Source: Pagrus major | Taxonomy: Eukaryota > Chordata > Actinopteri > Spariformes > Sparidae | Assembly: GCF_040436345.1 (NCBI RefSeq) | Contig: NC_133218.1 | Coordinates: forward strand, 23,173,070-23,237,069 | Length of the DNA stretch: 64,000 bases | Direction: 5' to 3' | Part shown: piece after piece, positions 5,191-33,572 of the stretch | Numbering within the stretch: position 1 is the first letter of the stretch | Layout of the letters: every line of letters begins with the position of its first letter | Translations under genes and position numbers: made by a program | Notes under the pieces: generated by a model | What the model was told of the DNA's origin: nothing | What the model saw: only the letters and a program-made list of their open reading frames with translations | The model's database searches: none

Positions 5191-9949
<4,759 letters not shown>

Positions 9950-10140: not shown

Positions 10141-10451
10141 TTTCCGTACACAGTAACACTGGGAGCGCTCGATTATGGGTATGATGAGAACCGGATGGGC
10201 GGTGATATGTCAAGGTGTGCCTTTATGACGAATAACAGTGAGTTTACAGTGACCATTCCCTTTGTAGTCAGGGTTTGATTATTTCCCATAATTTTAAATA
10301 TATAAAGAATGGCTGTATTATTATACACACCGCCCTCGCTATTGACCGGATGAGTGAATGTAGAGTAAAACGATCGCCACCCTCGATTCGACATTGTAAA
10401 CAGTCGGATTACCGAACTATGGTTCCGGTGTCGTGCCGAGAAGAGACTGCT

Positions 10452-12122
10452 TGCCGAAAAACGACTGCCCCCGACGGGAACGCGCTTCAGAGGAAGTGGG
10501 CGTTGCATTCATTCTCTGTCTTTTCAGCATTAATAGTAGAGGAAACCAGGTGCATGTACAGTGAATTTGGTCAATATCACTCTTGCAATAAGGACTTACA
10601 GGGTGCAGTCACTTTTCGGCAGGGCCTGCCGAAAAGTGACTGCACCCTGTAACTCTGGATTGGGAGGGGTTACATTCTCTGTCTTTTCAGCATTAATAGT
10701 AGAGGAAACCAGGTGCATGTACAGTGAATTTGGTCAATATCACTCTTGCAATAAGGACTTACAGGGTGCAGTCACTTTTCGGCAGGCCCTGCCGAAAAGT
10801 GACTGCACCCTGTAACTCTGGATTGGGAGGGGTTACATTCTCTGTCTTTTCAGCATTAATAGTAGAGGAAACCAGGTGCATGTACAGTGAATTTGGTCAA
10901 TATCACTCCTTGCAATAAGGACTTACAGGGTGCAGTCACTTTTCGGCAGGGCCTGCCGAAAAGTGACTGCACCCTGTAACTCTGGATTGGGAGGGGTTAC
11001 ATTCTCTGTCTTTTCAGCATTAATAGTAGAGGAAACCAGGTGCATGTACAGTGAATTTGGTCAATATCACTCCTTGCAATAAGGACTTACAGGGTGCAGT
11101 CACTTTTCGGCATGGCCTGCCGAAAAGTGACTGCACCCTGTAACTCTGGATTGGGAGGGGTTACATTCTCTGTCTTTTCAGCATTAATAGTAGAGGAAAC
11201 CAGGTGCATGTACAGTGAATTTGGTCAATATCACTCCTTGCAATAAGGACTTACAGGGTGCAGTCACTTTTCGGCAGGCCCTGCCGAAAAGTGACTGCAC
11301 CCTGTAACTCTGGATTGGGAGGGGTTACATTCTCTGTCTTTTCAGCATTAATAGTAGAGGAAACCAGGTGCATGTACAGTGAATTTGGTCAATATCACTC
11401 CTTGCAATAAGGACTTACAGGGTGCAGTCACTTTTCGGCAGGGCTTGCCGAAAAGTGACTGCACCCTGTAACTCTGGATTGGGAGGGGTTACATTCTCTG
11501 TCTTTTCAGCATTAATAGTAGAGGAAACCAGGTGCATGTACAGTGAATTTGGTCAATATCACTCCTTGCAATAAGGACTTACAGGGTGCAGTCACTTTTC
11601 GGCAGGGCCTGCCGAAAAGTGACTGCACCCTGTAACTCTGGATTGGGAGGGGTTACATTCTCTGTCTTTTCAGCATTAATAGTAGAGGAAACCAGGTGCA
11701 TGTACAGTGAATTTGGTCAATATCACTCCTTGCAATAAGGACTTACAGGGTGCAGTCACTTTTCGGCAGGGCCTGCCGAAAAGTGACTGCACCCTGTAAC
11801 TCTGGATTGGGAGGGGTTACATTCTCTGTCTTTTCAGCATTAATAGTAGAGGAAACCAGGTGCATGTACAGTGAATTTGGTCAATATCACTCCTTGCAAT
11901 AAGGACTTACAGGGTGCAGTCACTTTTCGGCAGGGCTTGCCGAAAAGTGACTGCACCCTGTAACTCTGGATTGGGAGGGGTTACATTCTCTGTCTTTTCA
12001 GCATTAATAGTAGAGGAAAACAGGTGCATGTACAGTGAATTTGGTCTATATCACTCCTTGCAATAAGGACTTACAGGGTGCAGTCACTTTTCGGCATGGC
12101 CTGCCGAAAAGTGACTGCACCC
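10452..12122. repeat. Tandem array of 163/164-bp units, each with a 57-nt palindrome
   Basis: Ten units start (at attctctgtc) at 10511, 10674, 10837, 11001, 11165, 11329, 11493, 11657, 11821 and 11985. The period is 163 in the first two and 164 afterwards, because of one added C (atcactcttg becomes atcactccttg). Each unit contains a palindrome. In unit 1 the arms are 10596-10623 and 10625-10652, 28 nt each, around one central base. Units differ at only a few positions. Read from palindrome centre to centre, each period is a 162-bp element with 28-bp terminal inverted repeats (cctgccgaaaagtgactgca ... and its complement), so the array looks like a head-to-tail concatemer of a MITE-like unit. 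A decayed arm (tgccgaaaaacgactgcccc, 10452-10471) marks the left edge and a truncated arm ends at 12122 on the right. Open frames across it are by-products of the repeat. Confidence 0.95.

Positions 12123-13716: not shown

Positions 13717-33572
<19,856 letters not shown>

Follow-up and report, generated by a model that had tools for sequence, protein, structure and literature searches.

The ten-unit tandem array in the 64,000-nucleotide stretch of Pagrus major DNA analysed here (the window) quite probably forms the middle of a fold-back DNA transposon that is non-autonomous and most likely of Ginger1 type, and whose transposase would be encoded elsewhere. The parent element is a non-coding fold-back transposon with the array at its centre, and copies of it occur at many loci in the genome. 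Its anatomy and dispersal, the deletions, the empty sites of CCGG type and the motif match are direct observations. No transposase-coding copy was found, and membership of Ginger1 is therefore inferred, as are the binding role and the route of amplification.

A ten-unit palindrome array in the window

The array comprises ten units, starting at positions 10510, 10673, 10836, 11000, 11164, 11328, 11492, 11656, 11820 and 11984, the last of which ends at 12122. The first two periods are 163 bp and the following seven 164 bp; TRF reported 9.8 copies with 99% matches. Each unit carries a 57-nt palindrome (28 + 1 + 28), perfect in six of the ten, with one mismatch in three (units 4, 6 and 9) and truncated in unit 10. 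Chance is excluded for these palindromes. Within the window the 21-nt half-site is present at 21 places, exact at 20 of them and with three mismatches at the other, whereas 100 shuffles gave a mean of 0.00. The palindrome of unit 1, folded as DNA, gave -34.1 kcal/mol, against -7.4 (s.d. 1.87) for 200 shuffles.

Unit spacing, TRF, shuffles and folding bear out the first-pass annotation in its description of a ten-unit, 163/164-bp array with a near-perfect 57-nt palindrome in every period. Its reading of each period, centre to centre, as a 162-bp element fits the first interval between palindromes, whereas the other eight intervals are 163 bp. It had also placed the start of the array at 10452; the sequence there is no diverged unit but part of a transposon terminus that begins 23 bases upstream, at 10429. 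Interpretation of this sequence as a diverged array arm was likewise rejected, as it is the end of a larger element found at many other loci.

The array lies between a SCUBE-like gene and a TMEM9-family gene. Domains of both are encoded on the minus strand: the TMEM9 domain at 7471-7653 and at 8668-8850, and CUB and Ephrin_rec_like domains in exons at 14929-18826. These exons are upstream of the TMEM9-family gene, and the gene to which they belong is probably SCUBE.

Table 1. Features of the array and of the element remnant in the window
Feature	Position	Strand	Basis
CCGG, 4-bp site beside the element's left end	10425..10428	+	sequence; CCGG also precedes 42/93 distinct ends
Left terminus of the fold-back element (TGTCGTGCCGAGAAGAGACTGCTTGCCGAAAAACGACTGCC...GTGGGCGT), remaining arm deleted	10429..10503	+	alignment to L016 arm; genome-wide 1-mismatch terminus C4:23183496
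Terminal motif TGCCGAAAAACGACTGCCCCC, 3 mismatches from array half-site	10452..10472	+	motif search
Central tandem array of 163/164-bp units, nine complete and the last truncated	10510..12122	+	TRF and unit spacing
Palindrome of unit 1, perfect	10596..10652	+	sequence, folding
Palindrome of unit 2, perfect	10759..10815	+	sequence
Palindrome of unit 3, perfect	10923..10979	+	sequence
Palindrome of unit 4, 1 mismatch	11087..11143	+	sequence
Palindrome of unit 5, perfect	11251..11307	+	sequence
Palindrome of unit 6, 1 mismatch	11415..11471	+	sequence
Palindrome of unit 7, perfect	11579..11635	+	sequence
Palindrome of unit 8, perfect	11743..11799	+	sequence
Palindrome of unit 9, 1 mismatch	11907..11963	+	sequence
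Palindrome of unit 10, cut; right edge of element remnant, right arm absent	12071..12122	+	sequence

The left terminus of the parent element, aligned with a 5-bp gap, is followed in the window by the arm deletion and then by the array. No right arm or right terminus was found after the array (3' of 12122); beyond it lies a different repeat, which is also present near loci L032 and L021. With 75 bp of the left terminus retained and the right arm lost, the window copy is probably a dead remnant. One arm is reduced to its terminus in L019, L029, L039 and L041 as well.

The array is the centre of a dispersed fold-back transposon

The dispersal through the genome that the first-pass annotation had anticipated is evident from the exact palindrome, which occurs 500 times (250 + 250), against none for the reversed control. 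A query of about two units gave at least 974 matches in the species' own 786 Mb genome, counted over the best 38 of 237 candidate places. Because the genome searches score the best candidates only, DNA queries yield minimum copy numbers, and places found by pattern match are those among the matches listed (about 100).

We assembled a sample of 37 array loci, consisting of the 36 best-scoring fetched loci and the window, all oriented with the window. The proposed transposon-derived origin held up in this sample: the array adjoins at least 28 bp of element arm in 33 of the 37 loci, on both sides in 10. Of the remainder, L029 has only a terminus beside the array, and L015, L030 and L037 have neither arm nor terminus. 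Beyond the arrays, many loci have further sequence in common, in inverted orientation, a typical arm position being matched by 25-28 other sets. These inverted arms are about 650-700 bp long, the element ends being TGTAGTGCCGA...TCGGCACTACA and the arm ending at GGTGTAGTGCCGAGAAGAGACTGCTTGCCGAAAAACGACTGCCCCC, with 97.7-98.9% identity between arms over 316-701 aligned columns in the five copies measured. Termini with up to three mismatches number 109 genome-wide (control, 0), and 15 of 16 further termini opened run into the same array units. The element thus has the long near-identical inverted repeats, internal repetition and non-coding middle of a fold-back transposon, with its repetition in the middle and not within each arm.

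Between the arms lie 0 to more than 35 units, depending on the copy, and whole elements measure 1.2 to more than 6 kb with the array at the centre. In L045 and L046 (about 1.18 kb each), the arms join at the palindrome without a full unit; L047 (1.5 kb) has about one unit, L052 (6.3 kb) has 28 array cores, one of which possibly belongs to the right arm, and L014 has 36. L052 consists of arms and array; of its ten stop-to-stop frames of at least 80 aa, the longest (103 aa) falls within the array, and another, of 101 aa, passes through the right arm. No transposase-coding copy was noticed on inspection of the loci opened.

Three loci showed further arrangements. At C2:19755673-19773373, many exact palindromes extend over about 16 kb at mixed spacings (for example, 164 and 248 bp), and this long array is flanked by a terminus and an arm. 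In L045 (C11:16560950-16562420), the element splits a host palindrome at its centre, leaving about 100 bp or more of the palindrome on either side. In L106 (C21:14654450-14655520), 54 nt of the terminus are followed by a different, 31-bp tandem repeat, as if the element family gained internal arrays repeatedly; the longer open frames of L106 run through this repeat, and no autonomous copy was found there.

Origin and turnover of the unit

The unit matches the inner end of the arm in a stretch of some 35 bp (CCAGGTGCATGTACAGTGAATTTGGTCAATATCACT) as well as in half of the palindrome. On this basis we read the unit as having arisen by duplication and enlargement of the centre together with the inner end of the arm, such that the palindrome in each period would be the centre of the parent fold-back, repeated. 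Comparison of 412 units, all 164 bp long (a further 16 that differed in length were dropped), gave a mean of 3.68 differences per 164 positions within a locus and 4.45 between loci. Fifteen of 211 unit haplotypes occur in two or more loci, one of them in 28, and nearest-neighbour units come from the same locus in 39% of cases, against 3.7% in 50 shuffles. Haplotype sharing together with the excess of same-locus neighbours indicates that the loci draw on one shared and young pool of units, which then changed further at each locus. The differing unit counts across loci speak against a single assembly artefact and, with 0 to more than 35 units per copy, they agree with the earlier proposal of amplification in that array size changed after the unit had formed.

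In the element, two near-identical inverted arms of about 650-700 bp meet at a palindromic centre, and we propose that the innermost arm and this centre were enlarged into the 164-bp unit. The number of units at a locus may then have risen and fallen, probably through unequal exchange, which would account for the range of unit counts. Copies insert at CCGG-like sites. The array palindrome repeats, on both strands, a motif of about 21 nt that is also placed at the element ends; by analogy with Galileo and Tetris, the array plausibly offers extra sites, or a field of putative sites, for transposase binding.

Target sites and likeness to Ginger1

As described in Bao 2010 (PMC2836005), Ginger1 elements have TGTNR ends, 4-bp duplications of CCGG (75%) or CCGT/ACGG (24%), inverted repeats of 40-270 bp and a transposase that resembles Gypsy integrase, with an OTU or Ulp1 domain in most families. 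Ginger1 relics have been reported in alligator, turtle, coelacanth and frog (PMC9004415). The present element carries TGTAG...CTACA at most ends of the large form, in keeping with TGTNR. Its arms exceed the Ginger1 range of inverted repeats, in which respect a fold-back derivative may differ. Among 93 distinct ends, TGTAG is preceded by CCGG in 42 and by CAGG in 34, together 76.

Flanks were compared in 23 both-ended copies, a set that omits L012, whose left end was unrecognised, and L051, which has the same flanks as L047. The pairs were CCGG/CCGG (six), CAGG/CCTG (six), CCGG/CCTG (four), CAGG/GGTG (two) and one each of CCGT/CCGT (L084), GTGG/GTGG (L052), ACTC/CCTC, CAGG/CCGC and GGGG/CCGG. 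Identical 4-bp flanks are therefore present in 8 of 23 copies (six CCGG, one CCGT, one GTGG) and absent from 15, and duplications of Ginger1 type (CCGG/CCGG or CCGT/CCGT) are found in seven. In the six copies with CAGG on the left and CCTG on the right, CAGG is read inward at both ends, and a plain 4-bp duplication cannot give such flanks. Target duplications of 1, 2 or 3 bp were considered and rejected, since the letters adjoining the ends differ in direct orientation in most both-ended copies.

Paralogous empty sites were available for two copies, ten for each: those of L046 read CCGG in seven, CAGG in two and GCGG in one, and those of L047 CCGG in six, CCAG in two, CTGG in one and CCGT in one. 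When joined, the flanks of either copy align with the empty sites with no gap at the junction. Both copies have CCTG as right flank; its T occurs in 0 of 10 hosts of either copy, and the A of the left flank of L046 in 2 of 10. The absence of the right-flank T from all hosts indicates that at least this T arose at or after insertion. Insertion sites show a weak CpG preference: over the 22 ends for which 1.3 kb of flank was available, the CpG observed/expected ratio is 0.77 within the nearest 300 bp and 0.50 at a distance of 1 kb (P = 0.023); GC content near insertion sites showed no significant shift (P = 0.17; 22 ends).

Miniature relatives of 95-149 bp, a family traced via a neighbour of L017, were matched at nine places, eight of which were fetched (the L116-L123 series). 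Their ends are mostly TGTCG or TGTTG. Five of the eight have CCGG/CCGG flanks by script, L118 likewise by eye and L117 TCGG/CCGG by eye; L122 has no right end, and L119 and L120 have the same flanks. Inside the diverged relatives in L017 and L116-L123 there are short repeats of telomere-like sequence, and one to three terminal motifs were recognised by eye. In L017, the miniature relative and the adjoining large element have one CCGG in common.

Unit edges as possible transposon ends

The unit end and the element terminus are alike at 18 of 21 nt, against a maximum of 16 in 200 shuffles, and the terminus and the array palindrome have the motif TGCCGAAAA..GACTGC.CCC in common. In L010, L011, L017 and L028, the array starts flush with foreign DNA at CAGG followed by GCCTGCCG, which is the unit end; the opposite end is a normal terminus in three of these four. 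Left edges against foreign DNA thus fall on the same base in 4 of 12 cases (simulated P = 8e-5, tested after the pattern had been noticed), three of the four CAGG edges having been shifted from 69, 66 and 65 (chance flank matches) to unit position 70, which was confirmed.

We also examined 25 array edges against non-element DNA, picked by hand when the coincidence of the four edges was already known. This set excludes edges into arm, terminus or inverted unit and two left edges, that of L015, which was not clear, and that of L030, where the fetched sequence ends. Nine lie within 8 bases of a palindrome centre, against 2.6 expected (P = 0.0006), and 18 lie inside the palindrome, against 8.7 expected (P = 0.0002). 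Palindrome breakage would give the same excess, so the edge test is no proof of use as transposon ends. The left edges of L036 and L041 also coincide, at unit position 130, for which end use does not account.

The likeness of unit end and terminus, together with the four flush arrays, suggests that units may act as alternative transposon ends and that unit ends may have served as such in these loci. We tentatively put forward a joint reading, which we consider rather doubtful as a whole, of a Ginger1 fold-back whose core consists of its own ends set back to back, with any unit boundary usable and arrays spreading as arrays, and which in addition carries its own CAGG flank into CCGG targets. 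If this held, the carried flank would make CAGG face inward on both sides although no true duplication had taken place. In a similar way, piggyBac and other elements that target TTAA carry their own 4-nt flank along.

Alternative readings

The ungapped match of joined flanks to empty sites and the inward CAGG at both ends in 6 of 23 copies would also suit a Spy-like transposon of the PHIS superfamily that makes no target duplication, has GGTGTAG...CTACACC as its ends and enters between CM and KG; Spy itself lacks target duplications (PMC4482050). We consider this unlikely. CCGG is palindromic, so the ungapped join is equally compatible with a CCGG duplication. The direct repeats CCGT/CCGT and GTGG/GTGG are not palindromic, and some ends have letters other than GG before TGTAG. 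Spy inserts in AAATTT (PMC4482050), whereas here CCGG or CAGG precedes most ends.

The first-pass annotation had taken the 162-bp period for the mobile unit, that is, a MITE mobile as such and amplified into satellites. Although the unit ends resemble the element terminus and the four coinciding left edges, found post hoc, agree with such mobility, the array adjoins arm sequence in nearly all sampled loci, complete elements end at TGTAG termini, and the loci opened contained no solo unit, including the solo units with flanking duplications that it had named as supporting evidence. Six single-palindrome loci opened among the matches listed (L051, L053-L057) each proved to be part of an array of several units or to be enclosed by the arms of the larger element. 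Judged by the loci opened, a mobile 162-bp MITE is very improbable, and the moving element is the fold-back transposon. We give least credence of all to a Helentron/HINE-type rolling-circle element with central tandem repeats. HINEs have short central arrays with monomers averaging 140-180 bp and no duplications (PMC7492417); in the present element, however, the inverted repeats at the ends are long and nearly perfect, insertion is at CCGG-like rather than oligo-T sites, and some copies have direct duplications of 4 bp.

Relation to known systems

A Ginger1-type fold-back joins two separate themes, satellite-seeding fold-back elements and the little-studied Ginger1 group, and through the family, arrays prone to form cruciforms have reached many chromosomes. 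The excision chemistry of Ginger1 is stated to be unknown in Bao 2010 (PMC2836005), and the pattern of CAGG and CCGG at the ends, for which empty sites are known, gives a direct handle on it. Among the literature matches listed, no title or opening of an abstract reports a fold-back Ginger1. Like Ginger1 (PMC2836005), the present element has TGTNR ends, CCGG/CCGT 4-bp duplications in part of its copies, and non-autonomous copies; it differs in its fold-back arms, its central palindrome array, its frequent CAGG flanks and the lack of a transposase among the loci seen.

Galileo, of the P superfamily, similarly has long, internally repetitive inverted repeats with several transposase-binding sites, but it belongs to a different superfamily, and binding there was footprinted, whereas here it is only putative (PMC3688188). 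The Cg_HINE Helentrons of oyster resemble the present element in having short, dispersed, satellite-like arrays as a non-autonomous core; unlike it, they are not long-inverted-repeat elements with a CCGG-like target (PMC7492417). Tetris of Drosophila virilis is likewise a non-autonomous fold-back, whose internal tandem repeats of about 220 bp seed satellite arrays and have a short stretch in common with the outer arm (PMC4079207). In Tetris, however, the repeats lie inside each arm and the duplications are 8-10 bp, whereas in the present element the array is central, each unit contains a palindrome and the insertion site is CCGG-like.
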